Origin: Arthrobacter woluwensis
GTDB lineage: Bacteria; Actinomycetota; Actinomycetes; Actinomycetales; Micrococcaceae
Reading direction: 5' to 3'
Assembly (NCBI RefSeq): GCF_900105345.1
Contig: NZ_FNSN01000003.1
Span: 1,798,001-1,862,000 of the forward strand
DNA: 64,000 nt
Each line of letters begins with the position of its first letter. The stretch's first letter is position 1. The position numbers were made by a program, and so were the translations under genes. Below the pieces are notes generated by a model. It was not told where the DNA came from, ran no database searches, and was given only the letters and a program-made list of their open reading frames with translations. Positions 6,907 to 59,389 of this stretch are shown piece by piece.

Positions 6907-9900
6907 ATGAGTAGGACAAGGAACGATCGTTGGCGCCATATCGGCGTCTGCACAGTGGCGGCGCTGGGCGTCAGCATCTTGCTGGCACCCGGAGCAGAGG
7001 CATCGCTTCGAACGAAGCCTGAGCAAATGGTCACCAGCCAAGGCGAGAATGGCTTCACGGAGGGGCGATACATCGTGGTGCTCGCCGAGAAACCGGCGGC
7101 GAGCTATGACGGGGGATTGCCTGGACTTCCTGCGACCCGTCCCGCCAAAGGGCAGAAAATGGACGCCCGAAGCGCCGATGTTCAGCGGTACCGACATCAT
7201 CTGCAGTCGGCGCAGAACCAGGTGGCCCACCGCGAGGGTATCGCCATTAAGAAGAGCTTCTCCACCGCTATCAATGCCTTTACGGCGCACTTGAGCGTCG
7301 AACAGGCGAGTCGGCTCGCCAAAGACCCCCAGGTCCTGTCCGTTGCTGCCGACGGGCAAGCCGCGCCTGCCTATTCGACCCTGGACTATTTGAAGGTCGA
7401 CGGGCCGGACGGTCTCTGGCAGAAGCAGTTCCAAGGCGCAGCCGCCGCAGGCAAGGGCGTGGTGGTGGGCGTCATCGATTCGGGGTACACCCCGTCGAAC
7501 CCCTTCTTCAGGGGCGAAGAAGTCAAAAGCCTGGGCGGCAAGACGCCGGTAGTGGGTGAGCCCTATCGGACCGACGAGGGTGAGATTCAGATGCTCAAGT
7601 CGGACGGTGGAACGTTTAGTGGTGACTGCCAAGCCGGTCAAGGATTCGCCGGGACCGAATGCAACTCGAAGGTGATTTCCGCCCGTTACTTTCCTGATGA
7701 ATACCTGAACGATGTGCCGCCGGAACACCGTGCCCCTGAGGAGCTGTTGTCGCCTGTTGACGTTGGCGGGCACGGATCTCACACGGCTAGCACGGCGGCG
7801 GGGAATGCCGCTGTTCGAACCACTCTGGGCGGTCGGGACATGGGCGTGACCGGTGGAGTCGCGCCTGGAGCCAAACTCGCGATTTACAAGACGTGTTGGC
7901 AGGACGACGACCCGGACACCGGCGGGTGTTATTACTCTTCCGCGGTGGCCGCGATCGATCAGGCGATCCTCGACGGGGTGGACGTCCTCAACTATTCGAT
8001 CAGTGGATTCACTGACACCACGAGTGATCCTGTCTCCCTGGCATTTCTATCGGCCGTCTCAGCAGGGATCTTCGTCTCGGCCGCTGGCAGCAACAATGGC
8101 CCCGGAGCGGGGACGATCGCTCACGGCGCACCCTGGCTGACCACCGTGGCCGCCAGCACGTTCACGGGACAGCTGCAAGGCACCGTGGAGTTTGCGGACG
8201 GCACGAAGTTTCGTGGTGCCAGCATCATGGCGCATAGCGTTCCAGACACCAAGATTCTCTTGGGGGCCGATGCCCCCTCGGGTTCCGGAAACGCGACGTA
8301 TTGTGCCCCTGGGAGCTTAGCCCCAGATGTTGTGAAGGGAACGATCGTGGTGTGTGATCGGGGAGGCGACGTGGACCGGGTGGTCAAGAGCGCCGAGGTC
8401 AAAAGGGCTGGCGGCGCGGGAATGGTCCTGGTCAATCTCAGCGAGGGTACCGAGGATACGGATCAGCACGCGGTTCCGTCGGTCCACATCAACATCCCCG
8501 ATAGTTTGGCGCTCAAACAAAAGGTCGAGAAGAATCCCGGAATCGAGGCTCGACTGGTCGACCACGACACCACGGGACTGCCAGTAGCTCCGCAGCCACA
8601 GATTGCGGGATTCTCCTCCCGCGGGCCTCTTCTGACGGCAGGGTCTGACCTCCTTAAGCCCGACCTCGCGGCCCCGGGAGTGAACGTTCTGGCAGCGATC
8701 TCGCCCATCGCCTCAGGTGGGGCCCAGTTCGGCATGATGTCGGGAACTTCCATGGCAGCCCCGCACGTGGCCGGATTTGCAGCACTGGCCCTGTCGAAAC
8801 ACCCTGACTGGTCTCCTGCCACGATCAAGTCGGCTCTCATGACTACTGCCACCGACATCAGAAATGCCGATGGCAGCCGGAATGGCGACTTGTTCGCCAC
8901 TGGTTCGGGCGAAGTCAATCCTGCGGGTTATCTGGCGCCGGGTCTCGTCTATGACGCGGGTCAGGACGACTACTTGGGGTACCTGCAGGGGCAAGGCCTG
9001 AACTTGGGTATAGAGGGCTTGAAGAGCATCGCGGCGCGCGACATGAACGTTCCATCGTTTGCCGTCGGTTCGTTCGCGGGTTCCGTGGAGGTCACCCGCA
9101 CGGTGACTGCGCTGACACCCGGCATCTTCCGGGCACGTGCAGACGTTCCCGGCATCAGGGTGACCATCTCTCCGAGTGTGCTGAACTTCGACGCTGCCGG
9201 GCAGAAGAAGAGTTTCAAGGTTCGCTTCGAGAGCACGGGCACAAACCTGGGGAAGTTCACGATGGGCCACATCGTGTGGGAAGGGGCGGGCCACAAAGTG
9301 ACCTCACCGGTCGCCGTCCGCGCCGAGTCCCTTCAGGTGGCGTCAGAGCTGAATTTCAGTAGCGCCGACGGCGACGGACGGGCCTCTGTGCCCTTCACCG
9401 GCGGAGTTTCAGGAGCTGTCAAGGCGAGGATGGAAGGTCTCGCCAAGGCCGACGCCAGACCAGTCGAGTTGGTGCCAGGCCCTGTCGCCGAGCAACAGGA
9501 CGCCTCCAATGCCGTCACGACGGTGACCGTAGCCCCGGGAGCTCCGCTCGCGAAGTTCGCCGTGGTGTCCTCCAGTAGTTCAGCGGACTTCGACCTGACG
9601 GTCCGTGGCCCGGATGGAAAGGAGCGCGTGGCGTCGACGTCGTCTGCCAGCGAGAGCATTGTCTGGCCGGATCCCGCGCCGGGGGAGTACACCGTCATGA
9701 CGAACCTGTACGCCAGCCCCGATGGAGCGAAGACCAAGGCTTCGCTGGAAGCGACGGTGCTCGGCGTTGACGAGCATGTGGCGACCATCGAGCCTTCTCC
9801 GCTCGCGGTACGGACGGGCCAGAAATCCAGCTTCGACGTGAAATGGTCGGGTCTGGCCCCGGGCTCCTATCTTGGCCGGGTGTCCTACGACGGTTCCAGC

Positions 9901-55667: not shown

Positions 55668-56495
55668 TCAGACGTCTCCGTCAGCCTGGGCCAGAGCATT
55701 GGTGAAGTCATGAGCCTCGCTGCAGACCAGGAAACTGACCGTCTCCACGGCATCGTCGACCAGTTCCGGGTAGGCGGCCCTGACCGCCGCCCGGGCCGAC
55801 TCTTTGATGCGGTTCCACTCGCGCCGTCTCCGTTCACCCTGTTCACCGGCCTCCCAGCCCGGTGACATCGGCAGGCCCGCGGTCGCGCGTTCGGCGACGG
55901 CGATGACTTCGAGGACTTGCGGCAGGAGCTCGGGTGCGACGGCGGAGGAGTGGCGCGCGGGCGTCTTCCCTCCCTGCGCGTAGCGTCCCGTGTACCTGAG
56001 CAGCGCTGCGTCGAGGGGACCGAGCGTGACGCCCCGCTCCGCGCGGCGCTGATCGGCGTCGTACTCCCACATGCGGTTCCAATCGGAGTACTGCGTGGCC
56101 GTCTGGACGGCGTCGGTGACCCTGCCGTGTTCGAGCAGGGGGACGTCGGCGCCTTGCGCGACCAGCTGTCGTTTGTCCCATGGGATGCGGCGGAACAGCG
56201 CGTCGATCTCGTGGGGTTTTCCGAAGAGGATGGGATCCAGCAGCGCCGTTGCTGCCCGGGTGTTGAGCGCGCCCTTGATCCCGGCGTCGTAGCAGAGCGG
56301 CAGGAAAGCGCTCCAGAGCAGGAGGTGACGCTCCAGATCGTGCTCGATGACCTCGAGCTGAGCCTCGGTGAGGGGAATGGTGAACTCCCGTGGGTCATGG
56401 TTGGCATCGGCTCCACCCACGATCCGGAGCCTGAGATCGCCGCCTTCGCGGATGGCCGTCGGCATCCACGGGTCCCTGCTGAAGACGACGGTCAT
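55668..56495 (-). CDS. Protein of unknown function (275 aa), possible DUF6357 member, putative signalling target
   Basis: I am not sure of the family; the start MTVVFSRDPWMPTAIREGG and ADANHDPREFTIPLTEAQL remind me of DUF6357, tentatively. It is soluble and mostly helical, with no signal or membrane segment. GAGGAGG gives a strong ribosome-binding site before ATG 56495. Its promoter (56655-56683) is flanked by two palindromes of the type bound by gamma-butyrolactone receptors, and the receptor gene lies 1.2 kb away. That arrangement suggests it is an output of the signalling cassette; what it does is unknown. Confidence 0.75.
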   Translation of the reverse strand: MTVVFSRDPWMPTAIREGGDLRLRIVGGADANHDPREFTIPLTEAQLEVIEHDLERHLLLWSAFLPLCYDAGIKGALNTRAATALLDPILFGKPHEIDALFRRIPWDKRQLVAQGADVPLLEHGRVTDAVQTATQYSDWNRMWEYDADQRRAERGVTLGPLDAALLRYTGRYAQGGKTPARHSSAVAPELLPQVLEVIAVAERATAGLPMSPGWEAGEQGERRRREWNRIKESARAAVRAAYPELVDDAVETVSFLVCSEAHDFTNALAQADGDV

Positions 56496-56570
56496 CGGGT
56501 CCTCCTCGTGGTGCGGGCCGGGGGAGCGGTCGGCGGGTACAGCAAACCCCGGAGACGGCCCTTAAAGCAA

Positions 56571-56595
56571 GAGGTGCGGCCAGTGACCGCACCTC
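56571..56595 (-). terminator. Hairpin in the leader of the 275-aa gene
   Basis: GAGGTGCGG/CCGCACCTC (56571-56579 with 56587-56595), followed on the minus strand by TTGCTTT. It may end the epimerase-like transcript or act as an attenuator inside the 275-aa gene's leader. Confidence 0.5.
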
Positions 56596-56619
56596 CCCCC
56601 AATCCAGCTTCGCTGACAG

Positions 56620-56639
56620 ATCAACCGAGCTCGGTTGGT
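56620..56639. promoter_or_regulatory. ARE-like operator 2 (downstream of the promoter)
   Basis: The core CAACCGAGCTCGGTTG (56622-56637) is a perfect 16-bp palindrome, and the 20-bp span is symmetric except at one pair. It carries the ACCG...CGGT half-sites of autoregulatory elements bound by ArpA/ScbR receptors. It lies just downstream of the predicted start site (~56648). Confidence 0.55.
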
Positions 56640-56654
56640 GGTATCAACACGTCC

Positions 56655-56683
56655 AGTCTATTCCTGGACCAAGAAGTAAACAA
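56655..56683 (-). promoter_or_regulatory. Predicted promoter of the 275-aa gene
   Basis: On the minus strand TTGTTT (56678-56683) and TAGACT (56655-56660) are separated by exactly 17 bases. Both sides carry ACCG/CGGT palindromes, the upstream one overlapping the -35 by two bases. Confidence 0.55.
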
Positions 56684-56699
56684 ACCGTTCAGCCGGTTT
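56682..56699. promoter_or_regulatory. ARE-like operator 1 (over the -35)
   Basis: AAACCG (56682-56687) and CGGTTT (56694-56699) with a six-base spacer. A repressor here would cover the -35 element. Specificity for the nearby receptor is inferred. Confidence 0.5.
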
Positions 56700-56719: not shown

Positions 56720-57691
56720 TTATCCCTCGGTGATCTTCGTCCGATACCAGTCCCATTCGTCGGCATCCGGTGAGGGGACGGCGGTAGAATTCCACCCCGT
56801 GGCGTCGCGAAGCGCTGCTCCCGCATACCAGTGGTCCCGCGTGACCAGGTCCACTTGATGAGCGGTGAATCCGGCCTCCGTCAGGGCGTCGCGCCCCACG
56901 GCCTCGGGCCCGAACGCGGGTGCGGGGAGGCGCAATGCCGCGGAGACTTCGGTGATCAGCTCCGCTGCAGTGACCGGTCGGGATCCGACGGCATGAAAGG
57001 CCCGCCCGTGGTTTTCTGGTGAAAGGGCCAGGCGGGCAGCCATTTGCCCCAGTTCTTTCACGCCGATGACGGATAACAATGCCGACCCATCGCCTGGCCA
57101 GATCCCGGTTCGCAGCATTTTCACCAGGCCTGGAATGAACCATTGGTCGCCGGCGCCGAAAACCAGATTCGGCCTGATGACGGTGCCTCCGCTGTCGAGG
57201 ACCATGCGGTCGGCTTCAGCTCGTGCGGCACTGACGGGAGACCGCGGAGAATAGGTGCCGTCCACTTCCGTGATCCCCCGGTGCGGACCGCTTCCGTACA
57301 CGCTCGTGGTGCTGAGGTACACGAAGCGGTCGACACCGAGTCGGCGGCATTCCGCCAGGAGGTTCGCCGTGCCCTGACGATTGACCTCGTCCGCCAGCCG
57401 TGGATCCTTGCCGACGTAGGAGGCGGCGTGGATCACCACGTCGACGCCGCGCAGCGCCTCTGCGAGGCTGTGAGGGTCCCCGAGGTCGCCGGGGACGGTG
57501 ATACCGTGTGGGGCGAGGGGATGCTCCGCCGGTTTCCGTGACAGCACGGTGAGCCCGACGCCCTCGGAGCCGAAGAGTGAAGCCGCGATCCGGCTTCCGA
57601 CGAAGCCCGTGGAACCCACCAGGAGGATCGCCGTCGGACGATCCACATCCCGGTGCGCCGTCTTGCCCGTCCCGGCGGTTGGGTCTTTCAT
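56720..57691 (-). CDS. NAD-dependent epimerase/dehydratase-like protein of the butyrolactone cassette (GblE type)
   Basis: Extended SDR of 323 residues, placed head-to-head with the receptor gene. The cofactor loop VGSTGFVGSR and the STTSVYGSG strand are intact. At the place of the catalytic YxxxK pair the sequence reads VSAAR, so Tyr and Lys are both replaced; it may reduce or bind substrate by another mechanism. In Rhodococcus the gblA/gblR cluster contains an epimerase-like gblE. ATG 57691 is chosen; the preceding codons are not family-like. AGGAGG lies further upstream than ideal (14 bases). Confidence 0.88.
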   Translation of the reverse strand: MKDPTAGTGKTAHRDVDRPTAILLVGSTGFVGSRIAASLFGSEGVGLTVLSRKPAEHPLAPHGITVPGDLGDPHSLAEALRGVDVVIHAASYVGKDPRLADEVNRQGTANLLAECRRLGVDRFVYLSTTSVYGSGPHRGITEVDGTYSPRSPVSAARAEADRMVLDSGGTVIRPNLVFGAGDQWFIPGLVKMLRTGIWPGDGSALLSVIGVKELGQMAARLALSPENHGRAFHAVGSRPVTAAELITEVSAALRLPAPAFGPEAVGRDALTEAGFTAHQVDLVTRDHWYAGAALRDATGWNSTAVPSPDADEWDWYRTKITEG

Positions 57692-57739
57692 AGAGACAAG
57701 TATTCCTCCTGACCCCACGACGAAAGGTTCTCCTCCGCA

Positions 57740-58363
57740 ATGCAGCAGCGGGCCATCGAAACCCGGAGTTCCGTCATCGAAGGTGCTTCGAAGGTTTTTG
57801 AAAGCGCTGGATACGGCAACGCCAGCCTCAGTGAGATCTCCACGCAGTCGGAGGTCACCAAAGGCGCGTTGTATTTCCATTTCAAGTCGAAGGAGGAGAT
57901 CGCCCTCGCGGTGATCGAAGCCCAGCACACCCGGTCGCGCGACGCCGGGGACAAGGTCACAGCCCTCGGGCGGAAGGCGCTGCCCACCATCATCGAACTC
58001 TGCCGGGTGTTCGGTCAGCAGCTGCTCGACGACGTCGTGGTCAGGGCGGGGATCCGCCTCACCTTCGAAGCCTCCGCCTTCGACGCCGACGTCACCGGGC
58101 CGTACCAGGACTGGATCGACACCATGGCCTTTCTGGCGGCCCAGGCTCAGTCCGAGGGCGATATCCGTGACGACGTCGACGCGGCCGATTTCGCACGGTA
58201 CCTGGTGGCGTGCTTCACCGGAGTACAGATGGTCTCCAATGTCTTGACGGGACGCGCGGATGTCATGGAGAGGATCCGTCAGATGTGGGCCTTCATGCTG
58301 CCTGCCATCGCCACGGATCCCCGGCGCTGGGACACTCACGAGCTGTTCGCCCCTCAGCTGTAG
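57740..58363 (+). CDS. TetR-family gamma-butyrolactone receptor (ArpA/ScbR type)
   Basis: A DNA-binding repressor released by a butyrolactone signal. The 207-residue protein has the N-terminal helix-turn-helix SEISTQSEVTKGALYFHFKS, matching ScbR/ArpA closely (VTKGALYFHF). A Trp in PYQDWIDTM sits where the ligand-pocket Trp of CprB/ArpA lies, so it is probably a true receptor rather than a pseudo-receptor. It is divergent from the epimerase-like gene (48 bases) and overlaps the synthase gene by ten bases at the 3' ends. Likely binds the ARE-like sites at 56620-56699. Confidence 0.92.
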   Translation: MQQRAIETRSSVIEGASKVFESAGYGNASLSEISTQSEVTKGALYFHFKSKEEIALAVIEAQHTRSRDAGDKVTALGRKALPTIIELCRVFGQQLLDDVVVRAGIRLTFEASAFDADVTGPYQDWIDTMAFLAAQAQSEGDIRDDVDAADFARYLVACFTGVQMVSNVLTGRADVMERIRQMWAFMLPAIATDPRRWDTHELFAPQL

Positions 58364-59283
58364 AGGCCTCGGAACGACATCAAGGTGGTGTCGCCCGCCG
58401 TGATGTCGACGTGGGCGGTTCCGTCGCCGAGGCTCACCACGGTGACGGCCGCTTGATACCAGAGCTCCACGATGTGGTGGAACTCTGCGGTGAAACCGTG
58501 CAGATCGACGTCGGGCCTGCCCGCTGCCACGCGGATCGCCTGGCGTGCGGCCTCCACCAGGAGCATGCCTGGGACGTGGTCGAGAGGATGGTCGAAGAAC
58601 ACGGGGTGGGCGATGTCCACCACCAAAGGCCAGGTGGACGGCTCCCGGGAGGCTCCCAGCACCACGTGCCGCCCATCCCGGTGGCCCACGTGTGCGCCCT
58701 TGAGGGCGCGCGCCGGGCGTGGTCCCGGCGGCTCGGGCGAGACTTGGGACCGGAAGCGCTGGTAGGTCCGCGCATCCAGGATCCGTGCGGCGGCCGAGCC
58801 GGTTCCGATCCTGAGGTTTCCGGACATGAAGCGCGCCGAGACCTCCAGCGAGGTGAAGACGCCGGCTCGTTCCTGGGACCGGATCACCTCCAGGCCGACG
58901 ATCACCTCGGTAGGTCGTCGGGGGTCACGGTCGAAGGGCGAGACCTCCAGAGCGAGGTGCGGCATGAGAAACTTGCGGTCCAGGGGGACACCGCTGCTGT
59001 GAGCGAGCAGGATCACGGACTGCCGAAGGGTCTCGGCGAGGAGCATGGAATCGGTGGGGCCGCCGGGTCCACGGTAGAAGACATGCCAGCGGGGCCATTG
59101 AGCGCCCACGACGAAGTGATTCTCGTCCAGCCGCTGGATCTCCGTCAGCAGGACCTCCGACAATGAGGTCTTGTGGACGAGCTCCCGCGGCACGGTGGCA
59201 GAGAAGTCAAGATGTCGGCCCCCGGCGTCCTGCTGGAGGCCGGCCGTTCCCATCGGTCTCCCAGCCGTGGAATAAGCCGCCAT
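58354..59283 (-). CDS. AfsA/ScbA-family gamma-butyrolactone synthase
   Basis: Condenses a beta-ketoacyl chain with dihydroxyacetone phosphate, the committed step of A-factor-type signals. The 309-residue protein has two AfsA hot-dog repeats. Repeat 1 has ELVHKTSLSEVLLT, QWPRWHVFYRG and AETLRQS; repeat 2 has WPLVVDIAHPVFFDHPLDH, VPGMLLVEAARQA. These are the classic signatures, with both conserved Glu. ATG 59283 has AGGGGG six bases upstream; a TTG at 59313 is an alternative. Its 3' end overlaps the receptor gene antisense, so each transcript could interfere with the other. Confidence 0.95.
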   Translation of the reverse strand: MAAYSTAGRPMGTAGLQQDAGGRHLDFSATVPRELVHKTSLSEVLLTEIQRLDENHFVVGAQWPRWHVFYRGPGGPTDSMLLAETLRQSVILLAHSSGVPLDRKFLMPHLALEVSPFDRDPRRPTEVIVGLEVIRSQERAGVFTSLEVSARFMSGNLRIGTGSAAARILDARTYQRFRSQVSPEPPGPRPARALKGAHVGHRDGRHVVLGASREPSTWPLVVDIAHPVFFDHPLDHVPGMLLVEAARQAIRVAAGRPDVDLHGFTAEFHHIVELWYQAAVTVVSLGDGTAHVDITAGDTTLMSFRGLYS

Positions 59284-59351
59284 GATGCGCCCCCTCGTGG
59301 CTTGATGGTACAACTCCGCGGCGCTCCCGGGGAGGGGCCGCCGTGAAATGA

Positions 59352-59389
59352 CAGGGGCGGTGCACCGGCGAACCGGTGCACCGCCCCTG
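59352..59389 (-). terminator. Terminator of the aldehyde dehydrogenase gene
   Basis: Perfect 17-base arms (59352-59368 and 59373-59389) around CGAA, 17 bases beyond the stop at 59407 and directly upstream of the AfsA-family gene. Confidence 0.8.

Follow-up and report, generated by a model that had tools for sequence, protein, structure and literature searches.

Which promoter does the receptor of a gamma-butyrolactone (GBL) signalling cassette act on in Arthrobacter woluwensis? The question is raised by three genes, gblA, gblR and gblE, coding for a synthase, a TetR-type receptor and an epimerase-like protein, found at positions 56720-59283 of a 64,000-nucleotide stretch of contig NZ_FNSN01000003.1, hereafter the window. 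The trio had been recognized in the original prediction, in which the autoregulatory element (ARE), promoter and RNA found at 56558-56699 went unmentioned. What the receptor most likely controls, as read from the sequence, is this predicted RNA beside gblE and not gblA or gblR; the original prediction did not see this. The cassette itself is already known in kind; the new part appears to be the receptor-linked ARE-RNA just past gblE. Taken as a whole, the window probably holds a GBL circuit in which a small RNA is the direct output, repressed by GblR and released by the signal.

The operator is the starting point of this reading. The ARE consensus AAACVGNNBVNNCSGTTT is given for the SfbR/SfbR2 receptors of Streptomyces filipinensis in the available sections of one report (PMC7480387). 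A search of the whole 3.86-Mb genome with the pattern AAACNGNNNNNNCNGTTT returned a single match, the operator listed in Table 1, which satisfies the stricter published form as well. The promoters of gblA, gblR and gblE in the window have no ARE, even with one mismatch allowed. In the same sections of the S. filipinensis report, AREs precede GBL-cluster genes, whereas the window's only exact site precedes the predicted RNA; an ARE before the synthase or receptor gene itself, absent here, is the arrangement of that report and no strict requirement. A second ARE-like palindrome (AAACCGTAACCGCGGTTT or close) was observed just upstream of an acpP-like gene (named by eye) in many related genomes (near the middle of L251-L254); a fatty-acid regulator may use it as its operator. 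It has no exact counterpart in this genome, and as a candidate part of the GblR circuit it was set aside as probably another regulator's operator.

Table 1. Features of the GBL signalling locus, in positions of the window
Feature	Position	Strand	Description	Models
ARE-type operator AAACCGGCTGAACGGTTT	56682..56699	-	Predicted GblR site; exact consensus match, 20 bp past gblE stop	
-35-like hexamer TTGTTT	56678..56683	-	2 bp overlap with ARE	
-10-like hexamer TAGACT	56655..56660	-	17 bp from -35	
Predicted small RNA, ~90 nt	56558..56648	-	Start estimated ~7 nt past -10; end set past hairpin	
5' stem-loop SL1 of RNA	56612..56648	-	From fold; contains near-palindrome 56620-56639	
G-run	56595..56600	-	Predicted unpaired 5' bulge in consensus; 5-7 G in 36 loci	
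Inner hairpin GAGGTGCGGTC-ACTG-GCCGCACCTC	56571..56595	-		
gblA	58354..59283	-	AfsA/ScbA-type GBL synthase, 309 aa, two hot-dog repeats	NF041195, PF03756
gblR	57740..58363	+	ScbR-family TetR receptor, 207 aa	NF041196
gblE	56720..57691	-	NAD-dependent epimerase-like short-chain dehydrogenase/reductase, 323 aa; N-terminal start uncertain	PF01370
DUF6357 gene	55668..56495	-	Downstream of RNA, same direction; neighbour, no conserved partner	PF19884 (341 bits)

The operator is followed by promoter-like hexamers and a predicted structured RNA, which were compared in 36 RNA loci (16 with gblE, 16 more matching the RNA model, being the 24 ARE-bearing matches minus eight repeats of the first 16, and L171, L212, L234 and L235). 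The 16 loci with gblE have the strict form TTGTT(T/C)-17-TANNNN, with a -10 of the TA(G/C) type in all but one. Over the whole set, for which several -35 spellings were allowed and 17 bp was the first spacing tried, ahead of 16 and 18, the -35-like hexamer is TTGTTT/C in 23 loci, TTGGTT in 8 and TTTGTT in 5, 17 bp from TANNNT; the ARE is exact in 25/36 and one base off in 11/36. A run of 5-7 G is present in all 36, loci found partly by that very run, and lies 42-75 nt from the -10. All these figures are a description and no independent rate, because six ARE-less RNA-model loci were left out of the set; RNA-less cassettes (L017, L018, L019, L025 and others) do not belong to it either. Between loci the hexamers and their spacing are kept while the spacer varies.

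The predicted RNA begins with the 5' stem-loop, which varies in sequence, and continues with an outer stem, the G-run in a bulge on the 5' side, and the inner hairpin. Its fold has a z-score of -4.28 in the window and of -2.16 to -5.07 over seven sequences. No Rfam 15 model matched over the RNA, either in the window (E up to 5) or at seven related loci (E up to 1). A coding gene was considered and rejected, since the distance from the -10 to the G-run varies without a step of three and no start codon is shared by eye. The 6C RNA (RF01066) was likewise tried as a partner of the G-run and gave no match in the A. woluwensis genome (150 of 2085 first-look candidates scored). In the window, CCTCCCCCC matches only the opposite strand of the RNA itself. 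The element looks like an undescribed small RNA gene beside the cassette.

RNAalifold, run on the alignment A1 (16 sequences), pairs the G-run and not the outer stem, and the outer-stem structure was posited by hand and then tested with controls. The outer stem was tested apart, on 30 sequences, because it shifts register between clades. Its best-pairing score was 6.52, against 4.60 (standard deviation 0.22) with swapped partners, none of 300 reaching as high, and 3.73 (standard deviation 0.19, 100 rounds) with shuffled flanks. For A1, none of 500 shuffles came up to the real alignment in paired fraction, covariation score or count of cells with both partners changed. A predicted conserved RNA structure backed by compensatory changes is supported by these comparisons.

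The distribution of the RNA was examined in the family Micrococcaceae with a covariance model, R1, built with the window sequence included. Searched over 395 genomes of the family, R1 matched 43 at E <= 0.01, and once in the genome of A. woluwensis. Thirty of the matches were examined as loci: an ARE, exact or with one mismatch, accompanies 24 of them, several of which lack gblA or gblE, and the other six are look-alike terminators. In a search of 297 genomes across the order, the two matches outside the family at E <= 1e-4 were both plain terminators without ARE and were rejected; G133, with 1.6e-4 in the family search, does not count at that threshold.

The same question was then approached from the receptor. 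ScbR receptors score above cut-off in 67/395 family genomes, and 75 receptor loci were compared (74 of the 76 places above the NF041196 cut-off, two G110 places that are near-copies of G093 being left out, and G071 below cut-off). An ARE with a G-run RNA lies upstream of the receptor in 27 of these 75 loci, in 26 genomes. Fourteen loci have the ARE-RNA 86-105 bp from the receptor start. The distance is 244-245 bp in G002 and G003, two genomes of the genus to which the window belongs, and 446-493 bp in G256b and G345; where gblE intervenes (nine loci), it reaches 1.03-1.12 kb. The synthase gene is adjacent in nine of the 26 genomes and not adjacent in 17; four of the 26 have an NF041195 match elsewhere (G002, below cut-off, G322, G378 and G381), and 13 have no such match at E <= 0.001.

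The intermediate spacings are accompanied by pieces of gblE, first spotted by eye and then checked by tblastn. Two loci have broken gblE in the interval from receptor to ARE-RNA, G345 with N- and C-terminal parts (E 1.7e-36) and G256b (5e-17); G002 and G003 retain N-terminal traces that are weak (30-32 bits). No remnant was found by tblastn in G063, G148, G322b, G358, G240 or G371. In the lineages of G345, G256b, G002 and G003, with no gblA match beside them, receptor, ARE and RNA have outlasted gblE. Receptor, ARE and RNA appear to form the conserved core, the synthase and epimerase being variable. Fourteen listener-only loci (L158-L160, L162-L169, L212, L234, L235) were also seen to hold the receptor-RNA pair between two tRNA-Ala(GGC) genes, mostly spaced by about 1.1 kb (L163 and L168: about 5.4 kb), which looks like the insertion of an islet at a tRNA gene.

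This persistence bears on the simplest competing account, a plain Streptomyces-like GBL circuit in which GblR would repress gblA and itself, the stem-loop after gblE would be a terminator and the ARE likeness would be due to chance. The short AAACCG...CGGTTT repeat followed by T-rich sequence does resemble a terminator, plain terminators match R1 (L142, L144, L147, L148, L151 and L152 among the 30 loci; L255 and L256), and ARE counts per genome are at chance level. A terminator after gblE would, however, hardly explain why the receptor still has ARE, promoter and RNA next to it at loci that lack gblE or hold a broken copy, nor why the hexamers and their spacing are kept while the spacer varies; and the gblA, gblR and gblE promoters of the window carry no ARE within one mismatch from which such a circuit would act. 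We consider this account rather improbable.

A maximum-likelihood tree of 103 receptor rows ties the RNA to one lineage of receptors. All 35 RNA-linked rows fall within a single clade of 37 (support 99/85); near-copies are included (L029 is the same as G256a, and L017, L019 and L025 are at or near zero distance from G381a, G384 and G093a), and the 35 rows therefore stand for about 34 distinct receptors. No ARE-RNA pair was detected at the other family receptor loci examined. In parts of the clade, orphan receptors intermingle with cassette-borne ones.

The tree also bears on what the receptors sense. Receptors of this clade could answer another small molecule, gblA and gblE being passengers in some lineages, and the 13 of 26 pair-bearing genomes without an NF041195 match would fit such an account, as would the antibiotics bound by Streptomyces pseudo-receptors according to the sections available of one report (PMC7480387). 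The intermingling of orphan and cassette-borne receptors speaks against it, as does the conservation of their residues: neither W125 nor R106 varies among 29 receptors of the clade and 12 further ones. Over these 41 aligned receptors (W125 in 41/41), the recognition-type helix reads T-K-GALYFHF in 37 and T-R-GALYFHF in four (G063, G256a, G256b and G240). We take W125 to be the ligand-pocket tryptophan of GblR, and regard a ligand other than a GBL as unlikely.

A further alternative places the function in the gene that follows: the ARE promoter would drive the downstream gene, here that of the DUF6357 protein, and the RNA would be its 5' leader, perhaps an attenuator. In G000, G002 and G003, a DUF6357-like gene does stand close behind the RNA in the same direction. 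In G001, of the same genus, the nearest long frame instead runs on the other strand; in L006, L012, G345 and the 14 listener-only loci a tRNA-Ala gene comes after the RNA, in L029 a peptidase-like gene 331 nt beyond it, and the 12 loci compared share no downstream partner. A leader of one conserved gene was rejected on the ground that downstream genes differ between loci, and a free-standing RNA is favoured because of these varying neighbours. Read-through from the RNA into the DUF6357 gene is possible in the window, yet a 5' leader as the general function of the element seems to us very doubtful.

Several observations weigh against a free-standing, receptor-controlled RNA. The ARE count per genome is at chance level (one in G000 and one with the reversed-pattern control; 22 genomes are near the control), and the case therefore rests on the place and conservation of the site. 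The 36 loci compared were partly selected, six of 30 fetched RNA-model matches without ARE having been dropped as terminators, and the loose G-run pattern also matches five ARE-less receptor loci (G007b, G036a, G036b, G264 and G314b). In the window, the outer stem is weak (GAAGC/GCTTT, five pairs, one of them G-U), the minimum-energy fold lacks the outer stem in its consensus form, and the RNA lies close upstream of the DUF6357 gene. In A1, the number of pairs with both sides changed does not stand out clearly from shuffles (26/500), and that of further pair types does not exceed them (274/500); sliding the partners by -1 gives 12 pairs and 22 cells changed on both sides, against 10 and 21, with 42% of the cells pairing against 88% unslid. 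Two members of the receptor clade are exceptions, G371, without RNA, and G240, with a degenerate hairpin beside which a one-mismatch ARE and a promoter are retained. Finally, the RNA locus of G368 (L161), the only such case found, is far from its receptor (cassette L247); it keeps a one-mismatch ARE and promoter-like hexamers.

The circuit with a small RNA as its direct output, which we prefer, would work as follows. As suggested by their families, GblA together with GblE and unlinked enzymes would make a GBL-type lactone. As long as the lactone is absent, GblR would bind the ARE over the -35 box and block the promoter, operator and promoter being read from sequence and conservation. A lactone in the pocket around W125 would release GblR and allow transcription of an RNA with two stem-loops and an exposed G-run, which might, speculatively, act through this run on C-rich targets or a protein. 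Some species would retain the listening half only, because synthase and epimerase come and go.

The identity of the cassette itself is less in question. As the original prediction had it, the three genes code for an AfsA-family synthase, an ScbR-like TetR protein and an epimerase-like short-chain dehydrogenase/reductase, and curated models agree: GblA scores 245.7 bits against the NCBIfam equivalog NF041195 (ScbA/BarX GBL synthase, cut-off 200) and contains two Pfam AfsA stretches (109.5 bits), GblR scores 209.4 bits against the equivalog NF041196 (ScbR family, cut-off 150) and contains Pfam TetR_N and TetR_C, and GblE matches Pfam Epimerase with 87.4 bits. The three frames are open, longer starts being possible for gblA and gblE. 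The signatures VHKTSLSEVLLT, FFDHPLDHVPGM and VTKGALYFHF and the tryptophan (W125) that had been pointed out are all present. By sequence, the best solved relatives of GblR are the TetR regulator 6srn/7ky1, the deposited gamma-butyrolactone receptor 5xaz, AvaR1 (6wp7) and CprB (1ui5). An alignment had been proposed as a check on the synthase residues; in 21 rows (L019 was not extracted), the GblA motifs SEVLLT, ETLRQ and FFDHPLDHVPGMLLVEAARQA align with, and the signature residues match, those of Streptomyces, Micromonospora and Rhodococcus homologues. The Glu and Arg-Gln of these hot-dog motifs are presumably catalytic; a literature search on ScbA active-site residues returned unrelated papers only. 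The genome holds one AfsA gene by genome search and one ScbR-family gene at E <= 1e-20. No later-pathway reductase (GblC/BprA, GblD) lies inside the trio, the genome not having been searched for them. Curated family models, signature residues and layout support the trio as a GBL-type synthase, receptor and epimerase cassette.

Two further features were noticed between and beside these genes. gblE looks leaderless, both at 57692-57739 and at the corresponding position of L006-L016: a -10-like AATACT/GATACT precedes an ATG by 7 bp. In several Arthrobacter loci, a short frame runs from this ATG to about where gblE is likely to start. A strong inverted repeat at 59350-59385, between an aldehyde dehydrogenase gene and gblA, is probably the terminator of the former.

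The divergent orientation of gblR and gblE and the tail-to-tail overlap of gblR and gblA, which measures 10 bp, are as first described. The arrangement was said to differ from the Streptomyces layout, and it does, yet without being novel, as it recurs widely outside Streptomyces: convergent gblA-gblR with divergent gblR-gblE is found in Arthrobacter-type loci, Micromonospora (L030, L042), Frigoribacterium (L057), a Renibacterium-labelled metagenome-assembled genome (L025) and an annotated Rhodococcus plasmid, pDF01. A gblE homologue occupies the same place in the Arthrobacter, Micromonospora, Frigoribacterium and Rhodococcus p52 loci. Since the same order and orientation recur in other genera, rhodococci included, the cassette, on this comparison of sequences, is of a known kind and its layout is not novel. 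A search for the trio across the Micrococcaceae had been suggested; ScbA-model matches occur in 27/395 family genomes and 8/31 genera, 19 of them above cut-off, including 2/4 genomes of the window's own genus.

Other arrangements were encountered among these loci, some of which are the same locus under two labels (L009 and L117; L018 and L098; L103 and L210). In L018 and L103, gblE directly follows gblA and the receptor gene is not between; at these two distinct loci without intervening gblR, no ARE within one mismatch was found. G210 (L210) has a receptor gene some 0.8 kb beyond gblE, of a type that falls outside the RNA clade, and G232 (L098) has one on another contig. L006-L008 carry, at about 7139-7833, a second TetR gene, 27-28% identical and diverging from gblA; upstream of it is a palindromic site, and an ARE match follows its end. 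G375 and G345 have a weaker ScbR-model gene beside the first receptor. As to operators, an ARE (exact or one mismatch) lies 648-663 bp from the receptor start, about the receptor gene end, in 11/11 loci of the set from genus g30, and a one-mismatch ARE precedes gblA in some cassettes (G159, G322a and G381a).

One of the closest known systems is that of Rhodococcus. Plasmid pDF01 of Rhodococcus sp. p52 has the order and orientations of the window, with gblA and gblR convergent and gblR and gblE divergent, in line with the Rhodococcus trio that had been invoked for comparison. According to the sections available of one report, most rhodococci have an oppositely oriented gblR between gblA and gblE, and R. 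jostii RHA1 produces a 6-dehydro-SCB2-like lactone (PMC5735094). GblA of the window is 38-41% identical to Rhodococcus plasmid homologues among the matches listed. The three Rhodococcus plasmid loci differ from the window in having no G-run RNA of its kind, and two of them (L113, L115) in having no gblE match. To the Streptomyces systems (ScbA/ScbR, SfbR) the likeness is an equivalog-level synthase and receptor and an operator fitting the SfbR/SfbR2 ARE consensus; in most Streptomyces loci compared, receptor-like genes flank the synthase gene on both sides in another orientation and no gblE match reaches threshold. The nearest reported case of a non-coding RNA at a GBL locus, in the sections available, is that of the antisense RNAs at scbA/scbR of S. 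coelicolor, which arise from overlapping 5' ends or inside scbA (PMC3765725). The predicted RNA of the window differs in kind from these, being intergenic and structured and having its own ARE-bearing promoter-like sequence.

In the excerpts of the literature covered, butyrolactone receptors target promoters within their own cluster and those of regulatory or antibiotic genes, and one report (PMC4748050) lists Arthrobacter for LuxR-type evidence only. Neither this RNA nor a proven butyrolactone system of the Micrococcaceae is reported among the matches listed. We lean towards a broader proposal, drawn like the rest from genome comparison, in which an ARE-controlled small RNA family would be the direct output of the Micrococcaceae receptor clade and would form with it a separable listening module, species in which the synthase was lost or never present being eavesdroppers on the butyrolactones of their neighbours. 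If true, quorum sensing in a family of soil bacteria would have a signal-controlled RNA regulator at its centre, and close relatives with both speaker and listener offer a natural comparison with those that have the listener alone.

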